This document shows positions 3,932-23,269 of a stretch of 25,389 nucleotides of DNA, piece after piece. The notes under the pieces are model-generated. The model had not been told where the DNA came from. It did no database searches and saw nothing but the letters and a program-made list of their open reading frames with translations. Within the stretch, counting starts at the first letter, position 1, and each line of letters begins with the position of its first letter. Source of the stretch: a virus. The DNA lies in the IMG/VR virus record IMGVR_UViG_3300042905_003842, positions 1 through 25,389 of that record. One strand, written 5' to 3'. Both the position numbers and the translations under genes were made by a program.

Positions 3932-5505
3932 GGGATGGCGGCTCCGATTGCGGTGTAGAGCGTGGAGACGCGGGAATCCAAAAGCGAAAGCGTCAAGGAT
4001 TCGCCGATGCTATAGAAGGCAAGCCGGCCAGACGTATGGTTAAAGAAAGTAGTAACGTTTCTGGCAAAAATAAGCATATTGTTTTCGTCGCCGCTCATAG
4101 AAGCCGCAGTAACAGTTGCATCCGCGCCCGCTGCCCTTCTGACGTAAGAGGCTGATCCCGACCGCGTAACACCAATAAGCCCGGCGACGTTATTCGCTGT
4201 TCCAGATGTTGATGTAGTCTCGTTTGACAGCCGGGTGCTGATGCTGGTTTCAGTGCCCGAAATGCCGATGATCTGTGATCTTGATGCTGTTTCTCCAGGA
4301 AGCGACGCACTTCCTAAATACGCATGCGCTCCAGAAGTTTGGGCCGTAGACACCCAGACGGCGGCGTGCCGATTGTCTTGCAATGCCGTACCGAAGGCAT
4401 AGTTGCTGTTTAGGTACTTCGTCGATCCGTTACCCACCAGCCCCGTCTTCCGGTTGTAGTCGCCGGAGACAAATGGCCCGTTATTCGTCGGTGCCGAGCC
4501 GACGAGCGGCGTCAGCGCACCGGACAGCGTGCGAGCGCCCATGAGGATGCAGGAGGCTTTGATGGCTGTCCATGTACCGTCCGACTTGCAGCCGGTGATG
4601 AACGTATTAATGGCGTCCCGAACGCCGGTTTCTAGTAGCTGCCCGTCCGCAGTTTCGACTGCGTTGATGTAAGCGTTCACGTCCGCGTCCGCGTAGTTCG
4701 GGGCGAGGGCGGCTCCGATTGCGGTGTAGAGCGCGGAGACGCGGGTGTCTAGGAGCGCCAGGTCTAGCGATTCGCCGATTGAATAAAAACCAAGCCGGCT
4801 AGCAGAAAACGCCGTGGCAGAGCCGCTGTTGTTGTCGGCATACACAAATACATTTCCGTTAAACGGAGTTTCGGACGCGGTCGTGTACGCAGTGTCCGAA
4901 CCATTAATGCGAATTAGCGTTGCATTTGACGCTGATCGGCGATACGCAAACAGTGTGCCGCTGGACGGAACAACGAGCGGGCTAGGCGTGGATATTGAGC
5001 TATTTCTAATACGCACGGAGGTGGTGGCTGGCGATGCAGTGATCGCACAACGAGTCGCGCCAGTGAGATTGAATCCAGCACCAATCGGAACATTGTTTGT
5101 CGCAGTTGCCGTGGAAACCCACACAGCATGAGAAACGCTATTTTGCGGGTCTGCGTTGTTGTTGCGACCGCTGTTCAAGTATTTCGTCGATCCGTCGCCG
5201 ACGAGCCCCGTTTTCCTGTTATAGTCGCCGCTAACGAAGTTTACGTTTGTGGGTGCCGTGCCGACCAACGGCGTAAGAGCGCCGGACAGCGTGCGGGCAC
5301 CCATGAGGATGCAGGAGGCTTTGATGGCAGTCCAGATGCCGTCGGTCTTGCATCCAGCGACAAAGTCGTTGATTGCCTTGGCGACGGCTGGCTCTAGGTT
5401 AGAGCCGTCGGCCGTGCGGACGGCGGCGAGGTAGGCCCGAGCGTCGGCGTCTGGTGCGACGTAGCCCGTAGCTCTAGGGCGCAGGAGCCGGGGATTCATG
5501 GGCAT
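3928..5505 (-). CDS. probable tail/receptor-binding protein with two tandem domains
   Basis: This 525-residue protein consists of two copies of one domain of about 255 residues, covering roughly residues 20-270 and 275-525. Each copy begins with A(D/N)V/DARAY-type helices, carries IKASCILMGARTLSGALTPL and FVSGDYNRKTGLVG, and ends FYSIGESL followed by LLD-R-VS-LYTAIGAA. The Ser/Thr/Asn-rich, beta-rich composition resembles LamG/concanavalin-type jelly-roll modules of phage fibres; that fold is inferred. Both copies carry one conserved Cys in GCK and one in ASCI. It starts at ATG 5505 with only a weak GAG upstream. The gene downstream is ATGA-coupled. Confidence 0.65.
   Translation of the reverse strand: MPMNPRLLRPRATGYVAPDADARAYLAAVRTADGSNLEPAVAKAINDFVAGCKTDGIWTAIKASCILMGARTLSGALTPLVGTAPTNVNFVSGDYNRKTGLVGDGSTKYLNSGRNNNADPQNSVSHAVWVSTATATNNVPIGAGFNLTGATRCAITASPATTSVRIRNSSISTPSPLVVPSSGTLFAYRRSASNATLIRINGSDTAYTTASETPFNGNVFVYADNNSGSATAFSASRLGFYSIGESLDLALLDTRVSALYTAIGAALAPNYADADVNAYINAVETADGQLLETGVRDAINTFITGCKSDGTWTAIKASCILMGARTLSGALTPLVGSAPTNNGPFVSGDYNRKTGLVGNGSTKYLNSNYAFGTALQDNRHAAVWVSTAQTSGAHAYLGSASLPGETASRSQIIGISGTETSISTRLSNETTSTSGTANNVAGLIGVTRSGSASYVRRAAGADATVTAASMSGDENNMLIFARNVTTFFNHTSGRLAFYSIGESLTLSLLDSRVSTLYTAIGAAIP
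3932..5460. repeat. two-copy tandem duplication inside the fibre-like gene
   Basis: Two blocks of DNA recur with a period of about 762-771 bases. One begins GCTCCGATTGCGGTGTAGAG at 3941 and again at 4712. The other begins ATGAGGATGCAGGAGGCTTT at 4541 and again at 5303. In the conserved parts identity is close to complete over 25-40 bases, while the middle of each copy is diverged. The difference in period reflects small in-frame indels. It is an intragenic domain duplication. Confidence 0.85.
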
Positions 5506-10962: not shown

Positions 10963-11360
10963 GAGACCCTGACGGTTGTTCGTCCCTCCGTGCCGTATGA
11001 CTTCTCGACCACCAGCCGCCGCACCTGCGTGTCGTCGGCCCACGCCACGCCGTTGAGCGAATCAAGAATGCCTTTCGCCAAGTTGTCGAGGTCTGCCCGC
11101 GGCAGCTGCGGCGCGTCAGGCTTCACGCCGGACTTGTTCATGTGCGACTTCGGCCGGGCGAACACCACGTCGATGACCACCTCGGCAGGCTCTCCGTGCG
11201 GCTGGCATCCGGCGGCCTTCGCCGAAAGCGCGACCGCCTGGCGGTAGGCGTGGATGCGGTGATCGCTCGGCGTGTACGCGTGCCCGTGCTTGCCTCGCAC
11301 CGTGACTCGTGGGCGAGGCTGGGGCACTGGATCTCCAGGCACTTCAAACGTGATAGCCAT
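10956..11360 (-). CDS. rusA: RusA-family Holliday junction resolvase
   Basis: This 134-residue protein matches RusA: N-terminal strand TFEVPGDPVPQPRPR, a Lys/Pro region (VVFARPKSH) and the catalytic core RADLDNLAKGILDSLNGVAW followed by ADDTQV, where the conserved Asp residues bind the metal. It resolves four-way junctions formed in phage recombination and replication and fits with the RecT-type protein and DnaN clamp in this window. Length is normal for the family. Confidence 0.9.
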   Translation of the reverse strand: MAITFEVPGDPVPQPRPRVTVRGKHGHAYTPSDHRIHAYRQAVALSAKAAGCQPHGEPAEVVIDVVFARPKSHMNKSGVKPDAPQLPRADLDNLAKGILDSLNGVAWADDTQVRRLVVEKSYGTEGRTTVRVSC

Positions 11361-11375
11361 GCGGGCGAGTGTCTG

Positions 11376-11600
11376 TCACGCGTCAAGCGAAACGCCTTGC
11401 TCCGCAAGCATGGAATGCAACTCGGCACGGGCCTGCTCGATGGCGTCGTGGACGGCGGGCTCAAGCTCTTCGTGCTTCACTCGGTTCCGCAGGTACTGGT
11501 CGAACGACCACAGCGCGAGCCGAGCCCGTCCGCCTTGCAGCGCCGCCGAAAACTCTTCGGCCTCATCTGGCAGCAGGAATGACAGCGTTGCCCTAGCCAA
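11376..11600 (-). CDS. small conserved phage protein of unknown function
   Basis: This 74-residue protein starts at a TTG (11600) within the end of the GNAT gene, an 8-base overlap. ATLSFLLPDEAEEFSAALQG followed by ALWSFDQYLRNRVKHEE is a pattern I recognise from small uncharacterised phage proteins near recombination genes. It is soluble and largely helical. No close ribosome binding site is evident, so translation may be coupled to the upstream gene. Confidence 0.65.
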   Translation of the reverse strand: MARATLSFLLPDEAEEFSAALQGGRARLALWSFDQYLRNRVKHEELEPAVHDAIEQARAELHSMLAEQGVSLDA

Positions 11601-11994
11601 GATGTAGCACCCAGTCCTTGCCGTTTCGCGTGTAGTGCAGCACCTCGCGAAACCCGAGCGACCGGGCCAGCGGCACGCAATCGGGGGAGAACACAGCCAG
11701 CGGCTGGCTACGGTCTAGGTAGCTGGTAGCCACGAGCATGTGTGCCCCGAGCTTCACGAGGCCGCGGCGTCGCCACTCAACGGCCACGAACGCCTCCAGC
11801 GTCTGCTGGCCTCGCCACTCGTGCGAGGCTACCCAGGCGATCGGCAACCCGACTTGAACAACCACGATCGGCGTGTCTGTAAGCCGCGTGTAGATCTCGT
11901 CCTGCATCTCGGACGACGGCCGGCAGAGGTTCGCGGCGCAGTACGCCGCCACGAACGGCTCAAGGTCGGACACGGTGGTGAGTTCGGCTCGCAT
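11593..11994 (-). CDS. GNAT-fold acetyltransferase
   Basis: This 133-residue protein has the GNAT core: IAWVASHEW and LEAFVAVEWRRRGLVKLGAH, where VEWRRRGLVKLG is the acetyl-CoA binding motif A, then SPDCVPLARSLGFREVLHYT, the usual C-terminal GF element. It would transfer an acyl group to an amine of unknown identity. ATG 11994 follows the helix-turn-helix gene after 21 bases, with no strong ribosome binding site. A second, unrelated-looking GNAT gene lies at 15775-16161. Confidence 0.75.
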   Translation of the reverse strand: MRAELTTVSDLEPFVAAYCAANLCRPSSEMQDEIYTRLTDTPIVVVQVGLPIAWVASHEWRGQQTLEAFVAVEWRRRGLVKLGAHMLVATSYLDRSQPLAVFSPDCVPLARSLGFREVLHYTRNGKDWVLHLG

Positions 11995-12015
11995 GCCCGC
12001 AATCTGGCAAGCGTG

Positions 12016-12303
12016 TCAACCACGCAGGCGAATCAGCGGCACGCCCCACGCCTCGACCTTGCCGACGGCGCGCCGCTCTCGCTCGGACTCAGACCAACGT
12101 TCCCGAACTTCCGCCGACCGCAGCGCGATTTCTTCCGGCGTTGCGTCCACCCAGCGAACGTCTTCCTTGTCCCGCTTTGGCAGCTTTAGGCTGAACCGCA
12201 TCTGGTGTACATGCTGCCGGGAAATGCCGAGGGCTGCGGCGATTTCTGCCACCGCAGCCCCGGCGTTCCACATGTCTGAAAACATCTGCTGACGTGGTGT
12301 CAT
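12016..12303 (-). CDS. small helix-turn-helix protein (copy 2)
   Basis: This 95-residue protein starts TPRQQMFSDMWNAGAAVAEI, then AAALGISRQHVHQMRFSL, a clear helix-turn-helix. The C-terminal part contains ATPEEIALRSAEVRERWSES. Its design parallels the protein at 10154-10435 (helix-turn-helix, basic link, TPE-I-LR-EVR-WS). The start lies in an ATGA overlap with the DnaN stop, so it is coupled to the clamp. Either copy might regulate this operon. Confidence 0.75.
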   Translation of the reverse strand: MTPRQQMFSDMWNAGAAVAEIAAALGISRQHVHQMRFSLKLPKRDKEDVRWVDATPEEIALRSAEVRERWSESERERRAVGKVEAWGVPLIRLRG

Positions 12304-13415
12304 GCGTCCTGCGCGAGCGGCATAATCACGCCCGTCGCGTCATCGCAACGCAGGATGACAGCGGACGCGGCGTCAACTGCCTCGATTTCTACTGGCACTG
12401 CCAAGTCGTCCAGGTGCTTTAGGAAATCTACGACGAACGACGGGTCGAGCTTCACGCTGCAAGCCTGCCCGAACTGCTCCAACGGGCAGGTGACGCTGCT
12501 CTCGCCAGCCTCGGCAGCACGTCCCGTCAGGTGGATCCCGTCCGCCGTGAACACAAACTGCACGCCTAGGCTCTGCTCGCTCGTGCAGATCGCCGCCTGC
12601 CGGGTCGCCGCCAGCAGTTCCGCCGCCGACACCAACGAAGACTTCGCGTCCCGCTCTGGCAGCGTGTCACGCCACCGTGGGAACCGTCCGTCCGTGAGCC
12701 GAGCCGTGACCGTCGTGCCGTCGCACTCGGCGATAACCTCGTTCCCGGTCGCCTCCAGCTGGACGCTGCCCTCGGAGTGAGACGCGACGCGAGCCATTAC
12801 GGCAATCGCACGAGCCGGGATGAGCACGGTCCGGTCGTCCACCGCCTGGTCCACCTCAGCCTCGTAGACAGAAAGCCGGCGGCCGTCGGTGCCGACGAAG
12901 TGCACAGCCCCGTCCTTGACCTCGACAAGCACCGCCCCAAGGGCGTAGCGGCTGGACTCGTTGTCCGTGGCGTAGGCCACGCTCTTCACCGCCCGGCAGA
13001 ACTGGTCCGCCGGCAGACGGCAGACCGGCGTGGCGTCAGCAGGCTCCCACGTCGGGTACTCGGCAGCCGGCTCGGTCGGCAGATTCCACGAGCCACGGCC
13101 GACGCGAACCGTGCACAACGTGCCATCGGACGAGAGCGTAACGTTGTCTCCGTTGCACTCCTTCAGAATCGCCTGCAGCCGCGCCGCCGGAAGCAGTAGG
13201 GCGTCATCATGAAAGTCCAGACTCGTCTCTATCTGGAGTTCCAGGTCGCTGGCGGTGAGGCTGCCAGAGCCGAGCAAAACGTTCATCAAGATCGGCTTGC
13301 TCGCCTTGCCCGGCACCGCCGGGCTTACCGTCGCCAGCGCCGCCCGCAGGGCGGACAGGTCGAGGTGTGTGCCAGTACTTCTTCGCCTTTTCGTAGGGGT
13401 CGCCGTCGCTGTCAT
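12300..13415 (-). CDS. dnaN: DNA polymerase III sliding clamp (beta subunit)
   Basis: This 371-residue protein has full bacterial beta-clamp length and three repeated domains. Signatures include DLSALRAALATVSPAVPGKA (domain 1), FVGTDGRRLSVYEAEV (domain 2, the DGRRL motif) and a third domain ending ATGVIMPLAQDA, which matches the usual MPL/MPM clamp C-terminus. It forms a ring that tethers polymerase to DNA. A bacterial-type clamp in a phage is unusual and suggests replication partly independent of the host clamp. ATG 13415 has AAGGAA eight bases upstream. Its first 69 codons overlap a membrane-protein ORF in another frame. Confidence 0.95.
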   Translation of the reverse strand: MTATATPTKRRRSTGTHLDLSALRAALATVSPAVPGKASKPILMNVLLGSGSLTASDLELQIETSLDFHDDALLLPAARLQAILKECNGDNVTLSSDGTLCTVRVGRGSWNLPTEPAAEYPTWEPADATPVCRLPADQFCRAVKSVAYATDNESSRYALGAVLVEVKDGAVHFVGTDGRRLSVYEAEVDQAVDDRTVLIPARAIAVMARVASHSEGSVQLEATGNEVIAECDGTTVTARLTDGRFPRWRDTLPERDAKSSLVSAAELLAATRQAAICTSEQSLGVQFVFTADGIHLTGRAAEAGESSVTCPLEQFGQACSVKLDPSFVVDFLKHLDDLAVPVEIEAVDAASAVILRCDDATGVIMPLAQDA

Positions 13416-13530
13416 CTGAGGATTCCTTTCCCTTCGGTGTCATCGTCCTTCCAACGCTCACCCCCAACGCGAAGATGAGCACGTTCAAAATCGAACCCAG
13501 TGCGAGAATGCAGGTCTGCGTGATGCTCAT
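13207..13530 (-). CDS. small membrane protein overlapping dnaN
   Basis: This 107-residue ORF has an N-terminal membrane span (about residues 6-27: CILALGSILNVLIFALGVSV), then a polar, Gly/Pro/Asp-rich tail. The start is well supported: it makes an ATGA overlap with the preceding gene and has GGAGG nine bases upstream. However, about two thirds of the ORF (13207-13415) lies over the start of dnaN in a different frame. The membrane part is outside the overlap and likely real; the tail may be constrained by dnaN. Function unknown. Confidence 0.55.
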   Translation of the reverse strand: MSITQTCILALGSILNVLIFALGVSVGRTMTPKGKESSDDSDGDPYEKAKKYWHTPRPVRPAGGAGDGKPGGAGQGEQADLDERFARLWQPHRQRPGTPDRDESGLS

Positions 13531-13715
13531 TGCTGGCGGGCCTCCAGCTGCTCGAGTTCGCGTGCGAGCACCACCGTGCGGTTCGCGAGCGACTCAACCA
13601 CGCCGGCCGCCAGGAGCATCACCACGGCGGTCATGTTCTCCGTCGTCGGCAACCGGGCGCGGGCCCGCAGCTGCTCGGCGATCTCGGCAACGCCAATGGG
13701 GGCAAGATTGTTCAT
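13527..13715 (-). CDS. hypothetical short helical protein
   Basis: This 62-residue protein (MNNLAPIGVAEIAEQLRARA at the start) is mostly helical, with an ELEQLEARQQ end. ATG 13715 makes an ATGA overlap with the replication protein and has AAGGAGGAG upstream, a strong site. No membrane span is convincing, although AVVMLLAAGVV is hydrophobic. It bridges the replication initiator and the clamp region. Confidence 0.6.
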   Translation of the reverse strand: MNNLAPIGVAEIAEQLRARARLPTTENMTAVVMLLAAGVVESLANRTVVLARELEQLEARQQ

Positions 13716-14569
13716 GCAGACTCCTCCTTGAGTTTGAGTTTCTGTGCAAGCGCGGCGACCTCCTTTGGTCGCCGGTACGGGGCTGGCTGGTACTGGTCCT
13801 TCCAAGCCACAGGCTTCGGCCGTTCGTCTGGTCGATTGCCTGCCTGACGATGCGTGCCACCCCGGTCTTGGCACTTACTTAGCCAGACCGTAGTGAGCCA
13901 TCTACGCCAGTTCGATTTCCGTGCCTTCTTCGGGTTCGCCTTCAGCCACTGAGTGGCCTTAGCGAGTTCGACGGGAAGGTCAGCCGCCGGGTAAGCCTGT
14001 GACCATTCCGCACGGTCAGCGTCGGTGATGCCCTCCCAACCGTTTTCCGCAGACCACCGAAGCGGATCGGCCGGCTTCGAGCCAGACCGCGAAGCGGGCT
14101 TGCTCGGAGCACTCAAAGGATTAGAGGTAGAAGGAAGACAAGAAGAAGGATTAAAGGCGCAAGAAGCCGGGGGATTTCCCGGCTCCAGCGCCGGATTTCC
14201 CGGTTTTCCGTTTGGCTCTGGGAAAACGATGATTTCCGCCGATTCATCGGGTGGCGGCAGCCCTTCGTCACGCTCGTCGGGGTGACACCGCTGATGCTCC
14301 CCGAAAGTCGGGATCTCGAGCACCTTCACGTCGCCCGATTCGTAGGCTCGGACGAAGCCCCTATCGGCCAGCTGCTTTAGCAGGCCGAGTATGTCGCAGT
14401 TGTCGTACGGAAACAGTTCCGCTTTGATACGCAGCGGGCGGAACTCCATTCGCCCCTGGCTGTCGGCCAGCGTCCAGAGCCCGACGAAAAGCAGGCGTGC
14501 CATCGGATCGCACTCTGCCAAATATTCGTTCTTGAAGAACGACGGTTTAATGCTGCGGGTTCGGGCCAT
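13712..14569 (-). CDS. phage replication initiation protein (winged helix)
   Basis: This 285-residue protein begins ARTRSIKPSFFKNEYLAECD, then ARLLFVGLWTLADSQGRMEF and a winged-helix-like stretch with ELFPYDNCDILGLLKQLADR, a pattern familiar from phage replication proteins (lambda O / DnaD-like organisers). A Ser/Pro-rich linker (about 110-165) leads to a C-terminal domain with LKANPKKARKSNWRRWLTTV followed by WLSKCQDRG, often seen in this family. It probably binds the origin and recruits the helicase loader. GGAGG lies six bases before ATG 14569. It overlaps the PAPS-reductase-like gene by 23 bases. I see no iteron array inside the gene. Confidence 0.8.
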   Translation of the reverse strand: MARTRSIKPSFFKNEYLAECDPMARLLFVGLWTLADSQGRMEFRPLRIKAELFPYDNCDILGLLKQLADRGFVRAYESGDVKVLEIPTFGEHQRCHPDERDEGLPPPDESAEIIVFPEPNGKPGNPALEPGNPPASCAFNPSSCLPSTSNPLSAPSKPASRSGSKPADPLRWSAENGWEGITDADRAEWSQAYPAADLPVELAKATQWLKANPKKARKSNWRRWLTTVWLSKCQDRGGTHRQAGNRPDERPKPVAWKDQYQPAPYRRPKEVAALAQKLKLKEESA

Positions 14570-15782
14570 CCTTGGCCTCCGGTTCGTAGATTTTCCATTC
14601 CTTCCTGCGGCGCTTCATCAAGTCCATATACCTCTGGTAAGCGGCTGTTTTGGTCGGACTGAATCCGAGCCACCGGCACCAGTAGTCATTCCGCAAAATC
14701 GACTTGGCAATCTTGCGCCAGCTGGGAGCCTTGCCGAGCGTTTCAAGTTTCTTGTCTGCCTCGTTCGGTATCTCGTCTGGGTAGCCCCTTGCCTTCCACC
14801 ACTTCAGGTACACGGCAATCTTGTTTTTGTAGTGCTCGCCCGTTCGCGGCGGCATGGATCCGAGTAGGAACTGAACGTAAGACTTCCATGTATGCCCTTT
14901 TGGGCAAGAGATGTCTCCCTTGCCCAAGACGTTGCCGCGTTCATTCCCGTACAGCGCCCCGGTGTTAGCGCCAGCCACTCGCTCTACAAGCTTCCCCCAC
15001 ATCTCGGGCTCGACAACTTGATACAGCCACAGGCTCTGCCTCTGCGTGTCACCAAAGGGCTCGCAGATACGCATCTGGTGAATGGTCATTCCCGCCTGGT
15101 GCATGCGGTCATACAGCGGGTTGTATGTAGTCCGCGACTTTGCGGCGTACGTCCAGATGTCTTCCGTCTGCCAGTCGTAAATCGGGTAGACGTTCCAGCA
15201 GTCGTCAACCACGTTTGTGGTGTACGGCTTGCCATCCAGCATCGGCTTGTCTCTGGCAACAGTCCGGAAACGGTTCAAGCTTTCCTGCGTTCGGATTCCA
15301 ACAAAACAAGCCGTCCGCTTTCCGCGCCCGTACCACTGGGCGAACAGCGGAACAAACTCCTCAAACATCATGTTGGGGACATAGAAATCAAAGAAATCAC
15401 CCCGCTTGATTGAGATGTCTTCCTTGTCGCGAACCCACGTCTTGTTTTCGTCCCACGCGATCCATTCCGGCTCATGCTGGGAACAGCCATTCCAAGTCGT
15501 CATTGGTATTGCAACCCAATACGGCTCGATCCACTTGGCGTACTCGTCAAACATCTTGCGGGCATGGCGGATTGTCATCGTGAACTGACATTCCCAGTCG
15601 ATGAAAAGCACACCGATTGTCTGATCTCTTTTTTTTGCCTCCTCCATGACAAGGTGCATCATCGCCGTAGAGTCTTTGCCCGCACTAAAAGAGCAGTAGA
15701 CGCGTTCGCACGAGTCGAACGCCCACGCGATACGCTCCTTCGCTGCGTCCAACACGTTCTTTTCCAACATGCGTTTAGGCAT
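14547..15782 (-). CDS. ibrA: PAPS-reductase/DUF3440-like PP-loop enzyme (IbrA-like)
   Basis: This 410-residue protein is of the adenine-nucleotide alpha-hydrolase family. The PP-loop is CSFSAGKDSTAMMHLV (30-45), with DWECQF at 62-67 and CFVGIRTQESLNRFR (159-173). WNVYPIYDWQTEDIW is a PAPS-reductase hallmark, and a long C-terminal DUF3440-like part with WKARGYPDEIP follows. PP-loop enzymes adenylate substrates and some, such as DndC, act in DNA phosphorothioation. IbrA is the bacterial/prophage homologue of similar length. Its start at 15782 has GGAG seven bases upstream and overlaps the GNAT gene by 8 bases. Its partners are the ParB-like gene, an unknown gene and a GNAT gene. The symbol is by similarity; chemistry is unproven. 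Confidence 0.85.
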   Translation of the reverse strand: MPKRMLEKNVLDAAKERIAWAFDSCERVYCSFSAGKDSTAMMHLVMEEAKKRDQTIGVLFIDWECQFTMTIRHARKMFDEYAKWIEPYWVAIPMTTWNGCSQHEPEWIAWDENKTWVRDKEDISIKRGDFFDFYVPNMMFEEFVPLFAQWYGRGKRTACFVGIRTQESLNRFRTVARDKPMLDGKPYTTNVVDDCWNVYPIYDWQTEDIWTYAAKSRTTYNPLYDRMHQAGMTIHQMRICEPFGDTQRQSLWLYQVVEPEMWGKLVERVAGANTGALYGNERGNVLGKGDISCPKGHTWKSYVQFLLGSMPPRTGEHYKNKIAVYLKWWKARGYPDEIPNEADKKLETLGKAPSWRKIAKSILRNDYWCRWLGFSPTKTAAYQRYMDLMKRRRKEWKIYEPEAKDGPNPQH

Positions 15783-16161
15783 CTGGCCGCTCCATCCACA
15801 CAAAGTTCTTAGAAGCTTTTGTTTTCTTGAACCCAGCTTTGGCAAACGCCGGTGCGCTGGCCTTGGTGCACACAGCACGCAGTCTGCCTCCGTGGCTGGC
15901 AACAGCATGCTTCAACAAAGTCGCGAACAACCCCTTCTTCCGGTGCGATTCAACAACAAAACAGTCGGACACAAGCCTCCCGCGGACTGACATCCACCCC
16001 ACAAGCCGCCGGCCATCAAACGCTGTAATCCAAAGCTTGTCGTCGTCGTCATACGGGTGAACCCCAACCTGTCTTGCAATGTTTCTGCTGCCAAATACTG
16101 GACCGAAATGCTTGTAAAAATCCTTGTCAGCCCTGCTCATGTCTCGAATACGAACGCTCAT
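15775..16161 (-). CDS. GNAT-fold acyltransferase of the ParB/PAPS-reductase cassette
   Basis: This 128-residue protein has GNAT elements: LWITAFDGRRLVGWMSVRGR, SDCFVVESHRKKGLFATLLK (motif A, with HRKKGLF in the acetyl-CoA loop) and VCTKASAPAFAKAGFKKTKA (the usual C-terminal GF motif). It lies between the PAPS-reductase-like gene and the unknown gene, overlapping them by 8 and 35 bases. Phage Mu Mom, a DNA adenine-modifying enzyme, has a GNAT-like fold, so a DNA-modifying role is conceivable. That is inference; no Mom-specific motif is claimed. Confidence 0.75.
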   Translation of the reverse strand: MSVRIRDMSRADKDFYKHFGPVFGSRNIARQVGVHPYDDDDKLWITAFDGRRLVGWMSVRGRLVSDCFVVESHRKKGLFATLLKHAVASHGGRLRAVCTKASAPAFAKAGFKKTKASKNFVWMERPDA

Positions 16162-16549
16162 TGAAGGAAAACTCCATCTGGGGGTTTCGTCTGGTGCGGT
16201 ACTTCCACTCGTCTATGACGCGGTCTGCAATCCTGTTGGCCTGCAACCGCTCCGCATCAGTAATCATTCCCCACGCAGCTCGAGTCAAATGCTCTGGAAC
16301 TTGTGCGGCAAAAGCACACGCCGCCTGGCCTAGCCACGCCCGGTTGTTCGGAGGCTCATGTAGGTTCGCCTCGCTCGCATGTTTCCACTCAACAGTGACT
16401 TCCCGCATCGCAGCAGCTAGGCGATTGGCGTCCGACAGCAGCGACGCAGCGGCAGACGCAAGACGCCCCTCGTCTGCAGCGGACACATCCCGATACATGC
16501 CGGCAAGCCAGTCTTCCCATTCCGTGTACGGACGCAGATCAGCCTTCAT
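16127..16549 (-). CDS. unknown protein of the ParB/PAPS-reductase cassette
   Basis: This 140-residue, helical, soluble protein starts MKADLRPYTEWEDWLAGMYR and contains LAAAMREVTVEWKHASEANL, NNRAWLGQAACAFA and VPEHLTRAAWGMITDAERLQ. I recall this arrangement from small phage proteins that lie next to ParB-like and PAPS-reductase-like genes. It has AGAGGA just before its ATG and overlaps the ParB-like gene by 11 bases. No catalytic motif is evident, so it may be a structural or adaptor subunit. Confidence 0.7.
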   Translation of the reverse strand: MKADLRPYTEWEDWLAGMYRDVSAADEGRLASAAASLLSDANRLAAAMREVTVEWKHASEANLHEPPNNRAWLGQAACAFAAQVPEHLTRAAWGMITDAERLQANRIADRVIDEWKYRTRRNPQMEFSFNERSYSRHEQG

Positions 16550-17219
16550 CTAATTCCTCTTCAATTCGCTCCGCTTCCCATGCCTGCGAGAAGTCACGGT
16601 CAGCAAACAGTTCAGCCAGTCCGCTCACTTGGGTCAGCCGAAGCACTTCGTCGGGGTCCATTCCAAGTTCTTTGCCGATCTTCGCGTCGGACCAACGGCG
16701 ACGCTTAAGGTCGATCACGATCTCCGACATCGCATCGACGCGATGCTTGCCGCGGGCGCGGTTATGGCGAATGGTTGCCGCCATTCGGTCGCCCTTGTCG
16801 AGTCGCGTGTTGTTGATCGTCACGACCGGCAGGTAACCGAGCACCCGTCCACGCACGAGATCGCTTTCCTTGCCGACGCGGTGTCGGTGAAAGCCGTCAA
16901 CCACCTCGTGCACGTCCTCTCGCCGCCACGACACAATCGGCTGCGTGTATCCGTCTTCCGTAATGGAGTGCTCAAGCAACTTCATCTCAGGCGGCGCGAC
17001 GCTGTTCGGGTTGTAGTCGTTCGCCTGTACCGTGTCGTTCTTCACCCACAGCACCAGGTCTACTGGCTCGTCTTTGAACGGGCTCGCCTCGTGAAGCATT
17101 CGCCGTGCTTCGTTCAGAAACGCTACGGCGTCGTCCGTCCCAAGCTTGCTGAGTTGTTTGCAGAGTTTCTTGACCTCTGCTGTCATCGCCTTTACTGCCT
17201 CTGGATGCTTCTTCGCCAT
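16539..17219 (-). CDS. ibrB: ParB/IbrB-like N-terminal domain protein
   Basis: This 226-residue protein has the ParB-type core: VLWVKNDTVQANDYNPNSVA, then LLEHSITEDGYTQPIVS, EVVDGFHRHRVG (105-116, comparable to the ParB GHRR box) and ATIRHNRARGKH, with a helix-turn-helix near 178-199. It is like IbrB, the partner of IbrA, which is encoded three genes downstream. ParB-fold domains bind CTP or act as nucleases; which applies is unknown. ATG 17219 is preferred because GGAGG lies seven bases upstream. ATG 17300, in frame, would add 27 residues. Confidence 0.8.
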   Translation of the reverse strand: MAKKHPEAVKAMTAEVKKLCKQLSKLGTDDAVAFLNEARRMLHEASPFKDEPVDLVLWVKNDTVQANDYNPNSVAPPEMKLLEHSITEDGYTQPIVSWRREDVHEVVDGFHRHRVGKESDLVRGRVLGYLPVVTINNTRLDKGDRMAATIRHNRARGKHRVDAMSEIVIDLKRRRWSDAKIGKELGMDPDEVLRLTQVSGLAELFADRDFSQAWEAERIEEELDEG

Positions 17220-17312
17220 GTCGGTGCCTCCGGTTTGGAAATCAAAAACCATCGGCAATTGCATACTGGCTTCGGGCGCTTCGCAAACTTCCTGTTTCAT
17301 TGGCAAAAACCC

Positions 17313-17621
17313 TTACTTTTGCGTAGTTAGAGCTTGATACACCGCCTGCTTCAGCCCGCTGTCTCCGCGAGCCATGCCCGCTTTCTCAATCAGCCCGCCG
17401 CGCTCCATCGCGGCCAAGCGTCGCCACACTGCGTCACGAGTCATGCCGGCCCGCCTCGCGATCTCGTCGCGGTGAGCCGGCCCAGCGGCCAACGCCTCGA
17501 CGATCCGCCGCTCGTGCTCGCCTCGGAACTCGCGGGCCGCGGTGCCGGCGATCTTGCTGGTCACCGGGTCCGTCTTGCGGAAAAGCGGCAGGTCGATCGT
17601 TTCGGTGTAGTAGTCGCTCAT
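17313..17621 (-). CDS. winged-helix DNA-binding protein
   Basis: This 102-residue protein has DLPLFRKTDPVTSKIAGTAA, followed by REFRGEHERRIVEALAAGPA and the helix-turn-helix RDEIARRAGMTRDAVWRRLA, ending MERGGLIEKAGMAR. It is a MarR/winged-helix-like layout known from small phage proteins. AAGGAG lies about eight bases before ATG 17621. It directly precedes the ParB-like cassette, so it may control it; it stops 13 bases before the upstream-most ParB start. Confidence 0.75.
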   Translation of the reverse strand: MSDYYTETIDLPLFRKTDPVTSKIAGTAAREFRGEHERRIVEALAAGPAHRDEIARRAGMTRDAVWRRLAAMERGGLIEKAGMARGDSGLKQAVYQALTTQK

Positions 17622-17647
17622 GGTTCGTCTCCTTGCGACCCGCCGCA

Positions 17648-17674
17648 GCCGGCCCGGCTCATCACCGGACCGGC
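17648..17674. other. strong GC hairpin between two genes
   Basis: GCCGGCCCGG and CCGGACCGGC form a ten-base stem with one mismatch around a seven-base loop. It lies between the stop of the 52-residue secreted peptide and the binding site of the winged-helix gene. No T-run follows on the minus strand, so it may be a partial terminator, an mRNA stabiliser or part of a leader structure. Confidence 0.4.
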
Positions 17675-17693
17675 GCGGCAGGCTCTCACGGGG

Positions 17694-17852
17694 TTATCGG
17701 GCCGGCCTCGGGCGTGGTCGCTTGGGCTTGCAGACACCACCAGGGCAGCCGCCGCGCTCCGTCGCGGCGACCGCCGGAAGTTCCTCCGTGTCGTCGTTCG
17801 CGAACGAGACCGGGCAACACCACAAAGCCATCAACAGCACAATCCATCGCAT
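17694..17852 (-). CDS. 52-residue secreted peptide with cysteines
   Basis: This short ORF begins MRWIVLLMALWCCPVSFAND, a clear signal peptide, probably cut after SFA. The mature part is acidic at first (DDTEELPAVAA), has GGCPGGVCK with two Cys, and ends in a basic Pro/Arg tail (PKRPRPRPAR). AAGGAG lies seven to eight bases before ATG 17852, which strongly supports translation. It sits between the gene ending at 17875 and the winged-helix gene. Function unknown; export to the periplasm is inferred. Confidence 0.65.
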   Translation of the reverse strand: MRWIVLLMALWCCPVSFANDDTEELPAVAATERGGCPGGVCKPKRPRPRPAR

Positions 17853-17874
17853 GACAGGACTCCTTTCCTAAGGG

Positions 17875-18087
17875 TCAAAAACCGAACCGCGCCTCCATGG
17901 CGTTGTCGTACTCGTCCTCACAACCGCGTCGCCGTGCCGCCGCGGCGTAGCCCGGTCGCACCGGCACCGTGTTCTCCGCAGGCACACGGCACGGCTCGAC
18001 CGGCACGATCTGCTCGGCGTCCGCTGGCAGCTGCTCGCGCTGGCGGTGAGCGTCCAGTGCCGGTCTGTCTTGAATTGGCTTGCTCAT
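17875..18087 (-). CDS. hypothetical basic small protein
   Basis: This 70-residue protein is polar, with Pro, Arg and Glu rich in the middle and an ARFGF end. It starts inside an ATGA overlap with the RecT-family gene, so the pair is coupled; small partners of RecT in phages are sometimes accessory recombination proteins. Low complexity makes it hard to classify. Confidence 0.5.
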   Translation of the reverse strand: MSKPIQDRPALDAHRQREQLPADAEQIVPVEPCRVPAENTVPVRPGYAAAARRRGCEDEYDNAMEARFGF

Positions 18088-18761
18088 CTGGCCGCCTCCT
18101 CCGCGGCGATCTCCGCGGCGTCGAACTGCGGCTCGTTCTCCACCTCGTTCACTGTCAGAGCCGGCGTTGTCTGGCGGGCGTACCGCCTGTGCTGAACCGG
18201 CTCGTGGTGCACCGTGACGTTGACGCTCGGACGCATCCGATCCGCCTCGTCAGGGTCCACGATTCCGCTGAACCCGAACGCGTAGCGGATCGCCTGAATG
18301 GTGGCCTTGTGCCGCAGCATCCGGGCCGGCCACTTCTTCCACGGGTCCGTGCCCTGGCGACACTCGCCGAGGTACTCAGTCACCTCGATAGGGTGGCTGC
18401 GATCCTTGCGAAACACGCGTGCCGTAATCGCCACCAGTTGCCCGTTGTCGTCCAACTGGTCCCGGTGCTCGACACCGTCGAACTGCGGGTGGTTGTTCGC
18501 CATCGTGATCCAGCCGTCGATGCCGACGATCGGCTGGATGCCGCCTCCCCGCGTCGGGAAGGCATAGATTTCGCGAGTGACGGGGTTCAACCCGTACTCG
18601 TTGGCCACCAGGAGGAACGCCGCGAACTGCTCGGGCGTTGCCCCCTTGCACCCGCACGTCTCGCGGACAGTCGCCTCAAACGCCTTCGGCTCCATGCCAA
18701 ACTTGCCAGCCATCGTGAGCAGGATGCTTTTGCGGTCCTGCGTGGTTGCAATCTGTGTCAT
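18084..18761 (-). CDS. recT: RecT/Bet-family single-strand annealing protein
   Basis: This 225-residue protein has the RecT/Bet pattern: ATPEQFAAFLLVANEYGLNP, then EIYAFPTRGGGIQPIVGIDG and WITMANNHPQFDGVEHRD, with VEVTEY-type and CRQGTDPWKKWPARMLRHKA elements and FGFSGIVDPDEADR. It pairs complementary single strands during recombination. ATG 18761 is chosen over 18821 because AAGGA lies seven bases upstream. No exonuclease partner (RecE/Exo type) is visible in this window. RusA at 10956-11360 could act on its products. Confidence 0.9.
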   Translation of the reverse strand: MTQIATTQDRKSILLTMAGKFGMEPKAFEATVRETCGCKGATPEQFAAFLLVANEYGLNPVTREIYAFPTRGGGIQPIVGIDGWITMANNHPQFDGVEHRDQLDDNGQLVAITARVFRKDRSHPIEVTEYLGECRQGTDPWKKWPARMLRHKATIQAIRYAFGFSGIVDPDEADRMRPSVNVTVHHEPVQHRRYARQTTPALTVNEVENEPQFDAAEIAAEEAAR

Positions 18762-18835
18762 GCCGTGTCCTTTCGTGTGAAATCCCTCATCCCGCTTCAG
18801 CGTCCTGCCTCCACGGGGCACTACCCTCCGTGAAA

Positions 18836-18850
18836 CCCGGCTCCGCCGGG
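18836..18850 (-). terminator. short hairpin upstream of the RecT gene
   Basis: On the minus strand a six-base stem CCCGGC/GCCGGG with a three-base loop is followed by TTT. It lies between the gene ending at 18862 and the RecT start at 18761. With so short a stem and T-run it would be a weak terminator or attenuator. Confidence 0.35.
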
Positions 18851-18861
18851 GCTCCTATGTG

Positions 18862-19143
18862 TCATGGAAAAACGAACTTGTCGTGCTCGACAACAACCGG
18901 GCCGCAGCGACCAACGCCCGGCACATGGACCGCGACGTGGTACGTCTCAAGGTCAACGCGGTCTGTGACGACGCCGCGGACCAGATCGCCGTCGGCGTCG
19001 CGGAATTGGACGTTCGCCCCCACGTCGAAAACGTGGTACAGCGTGCCCCAGTGAAGTTCTGCCCGCGGCTGCGTCAGAGGCAGAAGCGTTGTCTCTTGCC
19101 AGCCGGCGACGGCCCCGGCGTATTCGCGATCCCCTGCGTCCAT
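18862..19143 (-). CDS. hypothetical protein under palindromic-operator promoter
   Basis: This 93-residue protein has MDAGDREYAGAVAGWQETTL at its start and a C-terminal small beta-barrel-like part (VQFRDADGDLVRGVVTDRV). ATG 19143 has AAAGGA nine bases upstream, and its leader TCACGAAAGGAC closely resembles that of the RecT gene. A promoter with two palindromic sites lies just upstream. The function is unknown; control resembles that of an early or lysogeny-linked gene. Confidence 0.6.
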   Translation of the reverse strand: MDAGDREYAGAVAGWQETTLLPLTQPRAELHWGTLYHVFDVGANVQFRDADGDLVRGVVTDRVDLETYHVAVHVPGVGRCGPVVVEHDKFVFP

Positions 19144-19164
19144 GTCTCGCGTCCTTTCGTGAGA

Positions 19165-19218
19165 TGCCGCCTGCGGTAGTTGCGACAAGCAAGATACCGC
19201 CTGCGGTAGTTCTGTCAA
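19165..19218 (-). promoter_or_regulatory. promoter with two palindromic operators
   Basis: TTGACA (19218-19213) matches the -35 consensus, followed after 16 bases by TATCTT as -10 (19196-19191). The palindrome TACCGCCTGCGGTA (19195-19208) fills the spacer. A second copy with one mismatch (19165-19178) lies exactly 30 bases away, and the unit around it is repeated, so the site looks tandemly duplicated. The -35 overlaps the stop codon of the 23-residue ORF. A repressor bound here would block RNA polymerase. Confidence 0.65.
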
Positions 19219-19286
19219 CTGGAAAGCCCCTCGGCAACGAGCCGAACCAGCACAATGAGAAACTCAACCCATAAATTCACGTTCAT
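19215..19286 (-). CDS. 23-residue hydrophobic micropeptide
   Basis: ATG 19286 has GGGAGG about eight bases upstream. The 23-residue product (MNVNLWVEFLIVLVRLVAEG then LSS) is an amphipathic to transmembrane helix. The strong binding site and defined stop favour translation, but at this length coding is uncertain. It lies between the gene ending at 19369 and the promoter for the 18862-19143 gene. It may be a leader peptide or membrane micropeptide. Confidence 0.35.
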   Translation of the reverse strand: MNVNLWVEFLIVLVRLVAEGLSS

Positions 19287-19318
19287 CGGAATGCCCTCCC
19301 TGGCATTGGTGTAGCCAA

Positions 19319-19352
19319 CCCGCCGCACCGGGCCCGAAGGCGACCCGGCGGG
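19319..19352. terminator. GC-rich stem-loop between small genes
   Basis: CCCGCCG (19319-19325) and CGGCGGG (19346-19352) pair in a seven-base stem around a 20-base loop that itself contains CGGGCCCG. It lies downstream of the 19369-19641 gene and could attenuate transcription. No T-run follows on either strand, so the call is weak. Confidence 0.3.
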
Positions 19353-19368
19353 CGAGCCGACAGGTATC

Positions 19369-19641
19369 TCAGGTCGCCTCGGCCATCCTGGCCGCCTCGC
19401 TGCTAAACCGCCGCTCGAGCTGCACCAGAATGTCCAGCCGCCTGTCGATCGCCGCCCGGTCACGCTCCCACGCGGCGGCGTCGCGGTAGCTGCCAGCGGC
19501 GGGGCGGGCGGCCGTCACCTTCGCAATTAGGTCGCCAAGGCAGCTGGCGATCTCGTTCCACTGGTCAGACACATGGCGGCTGACGGTCAGCCTCGGTGCC
19601 ACGGTCGCCGTCTCGGCCCTCGTTAGGTTCGTCGTCTTCAT
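19369..19641 (-). CDS. hypothetical helical protein under palindromic-operator promoter
   Basis: This 90-residue protein starts MKTTNLTRAETATVAPRLTV and has two long charged helices (ERDRAAIDRRLDILVQLERR), probably a coiled coil. ATG 19641 is chosen over 19665 because AGGAG lies about eight bases before it. A promoter with a palindromic operator lies 54 bases upstream. No family is recognised. Confidence 0.55.
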   Translation of the reverse strand: MKTTNLTRAETATVAPRLTVSRHVSDQWNEIASCLGDLIAKVTAARPAAGSYRDAAAWERDRAAIDRRLDILVQLERRFSSEAARMAEAT

Positions 19642-19694
19642 GGCTCTGTCTCCTGTCGTGTTCAACGTGGCTCACTCGTCCACGTCTGCCAACC

Positions 19695-19723
19695 AACATA
19701 TACCGCTATCGGTAGTTCGTCAA
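19695..19723 (-). promoter_or_regulatory. promoter with palindromic operator
   Basis: TTGACG (19723-19718), a 17-base spacer and TATGTT (19700-19695) form a good sigma-70-like promoter on the minus strand. The spacer holds the palindrome TACCGCTATCGGTA (19701-19714), a variant of the site at the two neighbouring promoters. It should drive the gene at 19369-19641. Confidence 0.65.
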
Positions 19724-19766
19724 GCACAAGAGCAGGAAAAACGAAAACAGGGAATTTTGCCGCGAG

Positions 19767-20009
19767 TTATGCGGTCTTTCGCCGACGCGTCGGCCTAGAG
19801 GGCTTGTCGCCCTTTTTGGCGTTTGAGCGTGTCGTCAGGTTCCGGCGGGCCTCAATGGCGGACTCGCGGCTGACGAGCCAAGCCCGTTCCCCGGCCCGCC
19901 ACCCCTCGAGCTTGCCTTCCCGCAGGAGATGCCGCACCCAGCCGTCCGTGCACCCAATGAGGGCGACGGCCTCTTCAACGGTCAGCCACGTTTTGTCGGG
20001 TGATGCCAC
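19767..20009 (-). CDS. excisionase/MerR-like DNA-binding protein
   Basis: This 80-residue protein has a helix-turn-helix of the excisionase type: TWLTVEEAVALIGCTDGWVR then HLLREGKLEGWRAG and ERAWLVSRESAI, where the second half is the wing-like segment that reads DNA. A Lys/Arg-rich tail follows. It lies next to the divergent integrase, as excisionases do, and could steer excision or repress. GTG 20009 has GGGAGG seven bases upstream; ATG 20015 is only one base from it, but could serve if the mRNA is leaderless. Its own promoter carries the palindrome. Confidence 0.75.
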   Translation of the reverse strand: MASPDKTWLTVEEAVALIGCTDGWVRHLLREGKLEGWRAGERAWLVSRESAIEARRNLTTRSNAKKGDKPSRPTRRRKTA

Positions 20010-21528: not shown

Positions 21529-21946
21529 CGCGCCCCTCGTCAAACAAGACGATGGCCAGCAGGGAATACGCCGAGAGATCCAACAGCGTGTCGCGTACGC
21601 CCTCGTGCACCAGGCGGCCGGTGCGGCAGTAGGTCCGCAGCCTCTGGACCTTGTCCGCGATGCGGACCATGCAGCCACGCCACGCTTCGATGTTCACGAA
21701 GTCGGCCCCGCTTCGGACGTTCGCCAGTGGGTCTTCTTCGCTGCCGTAGTCGGCACTCTTGCTCTCGTGGAGTCGCCGCATCTCGTCGAGCAGGGCTACG
21801 AACGCCCGACTGCTGCGGTGTGCTCTGGGCAGTTCGGGCACCTTGCACGCGCCGCCCTCGCAACAACTGTCAGCGGGCGTTGCGTTGAGCCGCTCCAGCA
21901 CGGCGTTTCGTAGGTTGGCGTTTTGTTCTTCCAGCGTTGTCGTCAT
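21521..21946 (-). CDS. MazG/dNTP-pyrophosphohydrolase-like protein
   Basis: This 141-residue protein has an N-terminal Cys-rich stretch (SCCEGGACK) and a helical domain with LLDEMRRLHESKSADYGSEE, DPLANVRSGADF, MVRIADKVQRLRTY and VRDTLLDLSAYSLLAIVL. This pattern (KSxDYG, a helix with KxxR, DxxxDxxxY) matches small phage proteins annotated as MazG-like or dATP/dGTP diphosphohydrolase N-terminal domains. It may trim or adjust nucleotide pools. ATG 21946 has GAGG seven bases upstream; it overlaps the phosphoesterase end by 77 bases. Confidence 0.65.
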   Translation of the reverse strand: MTTTLEEQNANLRNAVLERLNATPADSCCEGGACKVPELPRAHRSSRAFVALLDEMRRLHESKSADYGSEEDPLANVRSGADFVNIEAWRGCMVRIADKVQRLRTYCRTGRLVHEGVRDTLLDLSAYSLLAIVLFDEGRDA

Positions 21947-23027
21947 CGGTGGTCCCTCTTAGGTCTCTGTCACAGAACAGTGGATACGCTCGCGTCACCT
22001 CGTGCCGGCCGTGGTCGATGATTGCCATGCCCTGGCACGGTCGCTCTGGTGACGCGACTCGTTCAGCGTATGGCGAGTGTCCAATCACGCTGCCGTTCGC
22101 CACGTAGCGGGCACCACGCAGCCAGCCCCACGAGTGGTAGTGCCCGAAGATGGTGAGGTCCGCTTTCCGCCCTGCGTCCCACCGTGCAATCGCCTTGCTC
22201 GCCGGCAGCGCGAGCCCGTAGACGCCACCAGCGAAACGTATGCTGTGACCGTGCGTAGTACGCACCAGGAACCCGTCGAGATCCACGTACCCTAAGTGCC
22301 CCTCGGCGATCTGCCACGAGACGTTCGCGTTCTTCTCTTCGCGGGCCAGCGTGAAGTACATCAGCTGTTCCCACGAGTGGTCTAGCTCCGTGGCGATGCG
22401 GTTTTTTTCGGTGCTGCGTCCGTGGTTGCCTGCGTTGGTGCAGACAATGACCTGGTCGGCATGCTGTGCAACGCTGTCGATGAGCCCACGCAGCCGCTCG
22501 GCGATCCACCGCGTAGCGTTCATCGGCGACAACTGCGCGACCTCGGCACAGTCTGGGTGGATGTGCCCCGTGATGAAATCGCCACCCAACCAGACGAGCA
22601 CGCGGCGGATGTCTGCCTGGTTCCTCTCGTGCTCAAGGCACTCCAAAAACCTTTCCTCCAGTTCGGCCATCCGCAGCTGGCAGACCTCTAGCGAGTAGTC
22701 GTTCTCGCCGTTTACGGTCTCGGGCAGAACGCGTTCCTCGCAGTGCACGTCGCTCAACATCAGCACGGCCGTGGCGGCATGCCTGCGACCCTTGACGGCT
22801 TTGGTCAAGGGCTTGCGTTTCGACGCCTGCAACCCTTGCAAACTCACGAGTGCGTCGGCACGCTCCCGCTCGCGGTCGATCTGGGCCAGCGCGGCTTTAT
22901 ACCTGTTTCGGTATGTCGCCAATTCAGCGCGCAGCCGTGCAAGCTCTGCGTCGGACGCAAGCTGCTCCGCGGACGCGACGTGCTCAAGCACCTGGTCGGC
23001 TAGCGTCTTTTTTGCTTGTCGATCCAA
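21870..23027 (-). CDS. calcineurin-like metallophosphoesterase
   Basis: This 385-residue protein has metal-binding motifs in order: LSDVHCEE, LVWLGGDFITGHIH, CTNAGNHGRSTEKN, TTHGHSIRFAGGVYG and FGHYHSWG. A coiled coil over roughly the first 75 residues precedes the domain. The substrate (DNA end, nucleotide or protein) is unknown. The start is TTG 23027 because AAGGAG lies exactly seven bases upstream; the ATG at 23075 would sit deep inside the preceding gene. The polar C-terminus overlaps the next gene by 77 bases. Phages use such enzymes as nucleases and nucleotide phosphatases. Confidence 0.85.
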   Translation of the reverse strand: MDRQAKKTLADQVLEHVASAEQLASDAELARLRAELATYRNRYKAALAQIDRERERADALVSLQGLQASKRKPLTKAVKGRRHAATAVLMLSDVHCEERVLPETVNGENDYSLEVCQLRMAELEERFLECLEHERNQADIRRVLVWLGGDFITGHIHPDCAEVAQLSPMNATRWIAERLRGLIDSVAQHADQVIVCTNAGNHGRSTEKNRIATELDHSWEQLMYFTLAREEKNANVSWQIAEGHLGYVDLDGFLVRTTHGHSIRFAGGVYGLALPASKAIARWDAGRKADLTIFGHYHSWGWLRGARYVANGSVIGHSPYAERVASPERPCQGMAIIDHGRHEVTRAYPLFCDRDLRGTTDDDNAGRTKRQPTKRRAGAAQRNAR

Positions 23028-23269
23028 TCGATGACTCCTTGTATTCCCGACGTGGGCCAGCCGCGTTCCCTGCACGCGGACATAATTGCCGCGGCATAGG
23101 CGTTCTTCTGGTGCACTGTCGGGTCGAACGCGGCGCGGACAATCTCTAGCTCGTCGCGTGCCTCTTGCGGCAGTCGGTCAAACCAAGACGCGAAGCCCGG
23201 CTTGCGCCCCTGTGCCCGCGACAGCACTTCATCCAGCAGGCTTTTTGCCGGTGCCTTTTGCTTTGCCAC
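23000..23269 (-). CDS. small putative DNA-binding phage protein
   Basis: This 89-residue protein starts at GTG 23269, with AAGGAGG about nine bases upstream. It has SLLDEVLSRAQGRKPGFASW followed by FDRLPQEARDELEIVRAAFD and MSACRERGWPTSGIQGVIDW, which ends like a helix-turn-helix. I know this WFDRLP...V/IQGVI pattern from small phage proteins, function unassigned. It overlaps the phosphoesterase start by 28 bases. Confidence 0.6.
   Translation of the reverse strand: MAKQKAPAKSLLDEVLSRAQGRKPGFASWFDRLPQEARDELEIVRAAFDPTVHQKNAYAAAIMSACRERGWPTSGIQGVIDWIDKQKRR

Follow-up and report, generated by a model that had tools for sequence, protein, structure and literature searches.

The present analysis concerns a gene cassette on the minus strand, at 14547-17219, of the IMG/VR virus record IMGVR_UViG_3300042905_003842, whose 25,389 bases were read at full length (the window). 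It comprises four genes, encoding a ParB-like protein, a helical protein designated UNK, a small GNAT acyltransferase and an IbrA-like PP-loop protein, with overlaps of 11, 35 and 8 bases, in full agreement with an original prediction made on this DNA. The ParB-like, UNK and IbrA-like proteins form a conserved core, present in hundreds of viral contigs, whose members are inherited together, have overlapping reading frames and are in part joined by fusion. The cassette is interpreted, with a probability of about 0.5, as a phage chemical-modification module that acts likeliest on DNA bases or nucleotides, and in which this fixed core is combined with an interchangeable finishing enzyme.

Conservation of the three-gene core

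Linkage of the core members is evident from searches anchored on UNK and on IbrA, all counts being of loci fetched with these very queries. The UNK-anchored search, with a family alignment of 28 sequences as query, yielded 84 loci: 4 come from GTDB contigs, and 80 are the best of at least 564 viral relatives. Beside UNK, all 84 have an IbrA-like gene or at least its C-terminal module; the main IbrA stretch is present in 83, and one locus has only the C-terminal module beside UNK. ParB is found in 79 of the 84, and the five others lie on contigs ending at or near the cassette. When the search was anchored on IbrA, UNK and ParB were each detected at 35 of 36 viral loci. Locus L022, an IbrA-ParB cassette without detectable UNK, is the sole such case among these 36. 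The gene order varies among the UNK-anchored loci (ParB-UNK-IbrA, UNK-IbrA-ParB, IbrA-ParB-UNK and others), and the linkage therefore does not depend on one inherited arrangement. Chance falls far short of explaining the arrangement, because many divergent contigs of viruses share the core. The original prediction had proposed the co-occurrence of all four proteins as a check; this holds for the near-constant core, but not for GNAT, which is optional.

Fusions join several of these proteins. At 20 loci ParB continues at its C-terminus into UNK, with 15 different sequences that fall into 11 clusters at 90% identity. An ectoine synthase-like (EctC-like) protein is fused to ParB at 20 loci, and UNK to a stand-alone DUF3440 C-terminal module at 2. 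In a tree of IbrA built from 120 clusters at 90% identity, a 76-member clade, sister to that of the window, holds every EctC and every stand-alone C-terminal module, and the EctC-bearing IbrAs make up a 63-member subclade inside it (support 0.969). The other clade has 42 members, with UNK in 41 and GNAT in 4, while two of the 120 sequences fall outside both clades.

The ParB-like protein of the window, core gene 1 (226 amino acids; 16539-17219, minus strand), is of the IbrB/YbdM type and has a ParB/sulfiredoxin fold followed by a C-terminal helix-turn-helix-like region, the latter with weak Pfam matches only. It matches phrog_2159 with an E value of 2.3e-70, and PF02195 (ParB_N) at 2.3e-4, which is under the Pfam cut-off. 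The residues of its NxYNPNxVAPPEM, DGxHR and TIRHNRARGxH motifs are at least 95% conserved among 149 distinct relatives. ParB-fold proteins are described in the accessible text of PMC12704722 as binding CTP, ATP or GTP and as commonly fused to other domains, including methyltransferases. The gene shares with UNK an 11-base overlap (16539-16549, minus strand), which is identical in L002, L003, L005, L011, L015 and L017.

UNK, core gene 2 (140 amino acids; 16127-16549, minus strand), has no Pfam or PHROG match in its window copy. Its AlphaFold2 model is all helical, with a mean predicted local distance difference test (pLDDT) score of 87.7. Comparison of the model with solved structures gave nothing convincing (Foldseek best E 1.5; VIA-align best Z 3.8), and it matches one viral predicted structure (E 3.3e-5); the missing solved match in these searches, made with a model, need not indicate a new fold. 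Four residues, Glu-12, Asn-68, Gly-74 and Ala-108, are the same in all 146 distinct UNK copies, and Trp-55 is present in 145 of them. UNK, linked as it is to the IbrA-like gene, is a core component and not a bystander.

Synonymous sites are near or at saturation in all four genes when the window is compared with L046 and L017, and the nonsynonymous divergence (dN) of the cassette genes is 0.02-0.10 against L046 and 0.13-0.50 against L017. This combination of synonymous saturation with few amino-acid changes establishes all four genes as real, selected proteins.

GNAT as an optional insert

The GNAT protein of the window (128 amino acids; 15775-16161, minus strand) matches PF13673 with 25.6 bits, above the cut-off of 23.6 (E 1.3e-5). 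A search anchored on GNAT, with a family of 5 sequences as query, returned 6 viral loci, all 6 within the cassette. The gene lies between UNK and IbrA in five of them, and between IbrA and ParB in L221, which is on the contig of L107. A further copy is present in L046, on a contig of a metagenome-assembled genome (G001). The same genome has a second, more distant ParB/IbrA pair at L208.

The site of insertion can be read from the junction sequences of the window, L003 and L005. The latter two have no GNAT, and their IbrA is 93% identical to that of the window; their UNK has GATGCCTAA at its end, where it shares bases with the ATG of IbrA, and the overlap ATGCCTAA joins UNK straight to IbrA. 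The window GNAT begins exactly at this UNK/IbrA start-codon junction and itself ends in GATGCCTAA, which gives the 8-base overlap of GNAT with IbrA, ATGCCTAA (15775-15782, minus strand). As a result of this insertion, the stop at which UNK normally ends is gone, and its frame continues for 35 bases inside the GNAT gene (16127-16161, minus strand). The corresponding UNK/GNAT overlap is 8 bases in L015 and L017, as compared to 35 in the window. Judged from these junctions, GNAT is an optional gene that was inserted between core genes 2 and 3. The original prediction had placed UNK and GNAT side by side between the ParB/IbrA pair; their positions are as described, but they are not of equal standing, UNK being core and GNAT optional.

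No GNAT relative was found among the cultured phages in the collection. Against phrog_1384, labelled a Mom-like phage family in the accessible part of PMC11318856, the window GNAT gave no match at E 0.1 and the GNATs of L015 and L017 gave none at E 1, structural kinship not being compared. A GNAT fused to a stand-alone C-terminal module in L073, suspected by eye, was left uncounted in view of an hhalign probability of 26% (E 0.0007) and the lack of a Pfam GNAT match.

EctC-like and EctD-like partners

Many cassettes encode an EctC-like cupin in the space that separates IbrA from the adjacent gene (E 2.9e-45 to PF06339, and E 5.5e-28 to 5bxx by phmmer). The EctC-anchored sample, the best 80 of 135 viral relatives, contains ParB in 79, IbrA in 78, and UNK and the stand-alone DUF3440 C-terminal module in 70 each. 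Gp104 of Mycobacterium phage Gaia is such an EctC-ParB fusion, annotated earlier as an ectoine synthase/ParB multidomain protein. The iron ligands of the EctC-like proteins are retained, E57 and Y85 in 78 and H93 in 77 of 78 distinct sequences. Trp-21 is replaced in all 77 distinct cassette copies, a count that leaves out L126; according to the available text of PMC6344544, this residue is completely conserved in 437 EctC proteins of ectoine operons and is important for activity. Retention of the iron site together with loss of Trp-21 suggests the same chemistry on a different substrate. Asn-38 was also considered as a lost specificity residue, but the solved ectoine synthase 5bxx has His at this position, and Trp-21 alone was used. 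L126 (MT835761.1, UNVERIFIED Bacteriophage) has an EctC with Trp-21 after a frame that by eye is aminotransferase-like; no IbrA or ParB is present there, and it is probably a part of a bacterial ectoine operon, that is, contamination.

An EctD-like (ectoine hydroxylase-like) dioxygenase (E 8.3e-44 to EctD 3emr) lies between IbrA and EctC in 2 loci. The EctD-anchored search found two viral relatives, both within the cassette, and no relative among cultured phages. The EctC- and EctD-like proteins differ from the ectoine enzymes in that they sit with IbrA and ParB and not in an ectoine operon.

The stand-alone C-terminal part of DUF3440, of 70-95 residues, occurs in 41 of the 84 UNK-anchored loci, usually beside a full IbrA (for example L056, 6329-6544, and L061, 6323-6541). 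Other inserts were also seen in the cassette. Those of L059 (2213-2743, PDDEXK_1, E 2e-4) and L171 (6483-7040, E 3.8e-4) are nuclease-like, with matches just under the Pfam cut-off, that of L086 (5328-6023) is nuclease-like by eye only, and that of L069 (4402-4941) resembles by eye an S-adenosylmethionine methyltransferase, with no Pfam match at E 0.01.

Relation to known gene pairs

The ParB/IbrA pair itself already has names, IbrA/IbrB and, in E. coli K-12, YbdN/YbdM, and the resemblance to IbrB/IbrA noticed in the original prediction is supported. With the cassette profiles, YbdM scores 1.2e-87 (ParB) and YbdN 7.5e-146 (IbrA); the window pair belongs to the same two protein families, and the pair of Streptococcus phage CHPC1230 is annotated IbrA/IbrB. 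The K-12 genes are adjacent and overlap by 28 bases. The K-12, CHPC1230 and Flavobacterium VK42 pairs, however, have neither UNK nor these tailoring enzymes in the stretches examined.

Phage isolates with the wider set of proteins exist. Gaia (gp103, gp104, gp106) and Pseudoalteromonas phage XCL1123 have IbrA-like, ParB-like and UNK proteins, and Mycobacterium phage Nebkiss has EctC/ParB and UNK matches. These three have the ectoine synthase-like domain (fused to ParB in Gaia) whereas the window has GNAT instead; Gaia and XCL1123 also have the stand-alone DUF3440 module, which the window lacks. Pseudomonas phage Amjad_SA (WAX22822-22824), with an IbrA 64% identical to that of the window, and Microcystis phage Mwe-JY13 (XAI95147-95149) display the window order ParB-UNK-IbrA, but without GNAT; their proteins are annotated as hypothetical, or as ParB/sulfiredoxin and PAPS (3'-phosphoadenosine-5'-phosphosulfate) sulfotransferase.

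Among the literature matches listed, none pairs UNK with ParB/IbrA, or EctC with a phage ParB, nor does any of them report UNK as a third partner, GNAT and EctC-like enzymes alternating on a single core, or an EctD-like partner. Iyer et al. (2013), whose work lies outside this comparison, reportedly predicted phage base modifications comparable with lysidine.

Chemistry of the IbrA-like protein

The IbrA-like protein, core gene 3 (411 amino acids; 14547-15782, minus strand), is a PP-loop ATP-pyrophosphatase of the IbrA/YbdN type; its start at 15782 is placed by comparison with relatives, the open frame extending to 15908. It matches PF01507 (E 5.3e-17) and then PF11922/DUF3440 (E 7.7e-40), both above the cut-offs. 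The PP-loop residues S33, G35, K36, D37 and S38 (SxGKDS motif) and the motif G162-I163-R164..E167-S168 are invariant in 76 of 76 relatives, so the ATP-pyrophosphatase chemistry is very likely intact. The AlphaFold2 model (pLDDT 85.7) has as its nearest solved folds the PAPS domain of FAD synthase, adenosine-5'-phosphosulfate (APS)/PAPS reductases and CysD (Z 13-15), with weaker matches to TilS, NAD synthetase, GMP synthetase and tRNA thiolases (NcsA and TtuA among the lists).

Sulfur chemistry is unlikely for this protein, because it has neither a conserved pair of cysteines nor the CysH motif. C369, in 74 of 76 relatives, is the only near-universal cysteine. A pair with C240 had appeared conserved at first (C240 in 32 and C369 in 33 of 35 sequences), but was dropped when C240 was found in 29 of 76 of a more diverse set. 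ECGxH, the catalytic C-terminal motif of CysH, is absent from all 198 IbrA-like proteins, and the CysH model TIGR02057 gives 44 bits as compared to a cut-off of 254.2. An auxiliary sulfate-assimilation role as a CysH-like PAPS reductase is thus hardly credible, the more so given the near-constant pairing with ParB and UNK, although the PAPS_reduct Pfam match would fit it and a phage gene of such type is annotated as a PAPS reductase auxiliary metabolic gene (PMC10434257, as far as its available text goes). DndC-type DNA sulfur modification, of the phosphorothioate kind, had been entertained in the original prediction and is very improbable. In the accessible text of PMC10853773 the Dnd system likewise pairs a ParB-like DndB with a PP-loop DndC, and the window protein does give weak DndC/BrxP profile matches (PADLOC DndC, 27.6 bits over a 96-residue stretch) in addition to the conserved C369. 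However, its score of 21.3 bits to the DndC model TIGR03183 lies far under the cut-off of 290.4, the distinct cysteine dyad that the same source gives for DndC has no counterpart in the cassette IbrA, and the acyltransferase and cyclase partners of the cassette would be left unexplained. Taken together, the missed CysH and DndC cut-offs, the missing ECGxH, the single near-universal cysteine and the acyltransferase and ring-closing partners suggest that IbrA would adenylate its substrate and then couple it to an amine, and not transfer sulfur.

Proposed mechanism and alternative explanations

Phage DNA, or nucleotides bound for it, is considered the likeliest substrate of the module, at about even odds against all the alternatives together, because the ParB-like protein comes from a DNA- and nucleotide-binding family and the cassette is flanked by replication genes. 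In the window its neighbours, as assigned with Pfam and PHROG, are a winged-helix protein, a RecT annealase, a beta clamp and a replication initiator. Among 97 open reading frames flanking cassettes, primase/helicase, DnaB, NinG and primosomal proteins are the commonest named families.

Linkage, fusions and catalytic residues come from the sequences themselves; the substrate and product named here are inferred. In the proposed mechanism, the ParB-like protein, with its helix-turn-helix region and nucleotide-binding fold, would together with UNK deliver IbrA to DNA. IbrA would activate a carbonyl or carboxylate with ATP, by adenylation like that of TilS, NAD synthetase and GMP synthetase, and couple it to an amine-bearing group. 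In the window phage, GNAT may then acylate the free amine, while in the sister clade the EctC-like enzyme would close a ring by loss of water and the EctD-like enzyme hydroxylate that ring. The presumed purpose would be the shielding of phage DNA from host nucleases. A more specific version, namely a new class of hypermodification in which a ParB-guided PP-loop ligase adds an amine side chain to a base and ectoine-like finishing yields N-acylated or cyclic-amidine bases, is tentative and on the doubtful side; to our knowledge, such bases are not known in DNA. The cytosine hypermodification of phage S-B43 by CmoA/CmoX/CmoY, a proven pathway, follows a comparable logic with enzymes unrelated to these; it uses an AMP-forming ATP-dependent ligase, and ParB-domain genes are often nearby (PMC12783734, accessible part). 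That ligase is, however, of another family, the handle is made by a carboxymethyltransferase, and IbrA, UNK, GNAT and EctC go unmentioned in the same part of the source.

The module could have a target other than phage DNA, such as a tRNA, a protein or a free metabolite (for instance a nucleotide signal or a solute resembling ectoine), and serve host takeover or counter-defence, which is unlikely but retains appreciable weight. EctD acts on free small molecules in bacteria, and many PP-loop relatives, among them NcsA, TtuA and TilS of the fold lists, act on tRNA, both in favour of such a target. Bacterial EctC also acts on free small molecules (PMC4795551, PMC6344544, in their available text). 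True ectoine is nevertheless improbable, with Trp-21 lost in every cassette copy counted, and the cassettes showed no EctB, though without a systematic search; the location in a replication/recombination cluster and the DNA-binding family of the ParB-like subunit also argue against a non-DNA target. It is rather improbable, too, that the pair is a transcriptional co-activator, in which a nucleotide-gated, DNA-binding ParB-like regulator would work with IbrA as a sensing or modifying partner to switch genes of the phage or the host, and GNAT would acetylate protein. The HTH-like region and the strongly conserved ParB motifs are in line with a regulator, as are the annotation of the CHPC1230 pair and the regulated chromosomal operon that holds ybdNM in K-12 (PMC9068703, accessible part). 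Such a pure regulator leaves unexplained the fully conserved ATP-pyrophosphatase site, and equally the GNAT-, EctC- and EctD-like partners with intact catalytic residues, some of them fused to ParB.

Several observations weigh against a DNA-modifying module. For none of the cassette members did the analysis find a modified base, an enzyme activity or a phenotype of deletion, and the counts given above are not population frequencies. IbrA/B are described, as a label only, as co-activators of prophage genes in the available text of PMC4490671. The ParB/IbrA pair can act alone, since K-12 and several phages carry it without UNK or these tailoring enzymes in the stretch examined. GNAT and EctC are together in none of 154 non-redundant loci, so that no single phage shows steps in an EctA-EctC-like succession; searched for EctA with NCBIfam at E 0.1, the window GNAT matched only PRK10514 and PRK09831, both far under cut-off. 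The viral EctC-like locus L199 has no IbrA in the 6 kb upstream, its contig ending just downstream. The general idea of a modification module, already put forward in the original prediction, is nonetheless supported, as far as can be inferred from the enzymes and their context.

Genomic surroundings in the window

The IbrA-like gene overlaps by 23 bases with the next gene, which encodes a phage replication-initiation protein (13712-14569). A complete sliding-clamp (DNA polymerase III beta) gene with three Pfam domains lies at 12300-13415 on the minus strand, and several viral contigs have a relative of it close to the cassette. Also on the minus strand, a DNA methyltransferase at 2669-3496 (phrog_363, E 1.6e-90) indicates that the phage has conventional DNA modification as well. 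Two stretches of a 525-amino-acid protein at 3928-5505 (minus strand) match phrog_17104, which has no assigned function (E 1.4e-159), and HNH endonuclease-like and exonuclease-like proteins are encoded at 25-939 and 21870-23075 (minus strand). The stretch 11000-20000 of the window has no DNA match among cultured phages.

Significance

For years, phage annotations have listed the ParB/IbrA pair, frequently under sulfur metabolism or partition, with no mechanism attached. The addition of UNK, an almost constant third partner from a new domain family, and of rotating finishing enzymes turns this into a specific biochemical prediction. The isolated phages Gaia, XCL1123, Amjad_SA and Mwe-JY13 make this reading directly testable by mass spectrometry, the predicted mass shifts, base aside, being +42 Da for an acetylating GNAT, -18 Da for the EctC-like and +16 Da for the EctD-like enzyme. 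If it is true, phage DNA would contain a new base chemistry, and some viral 'PAPS reductase' genes would not be metabolic.

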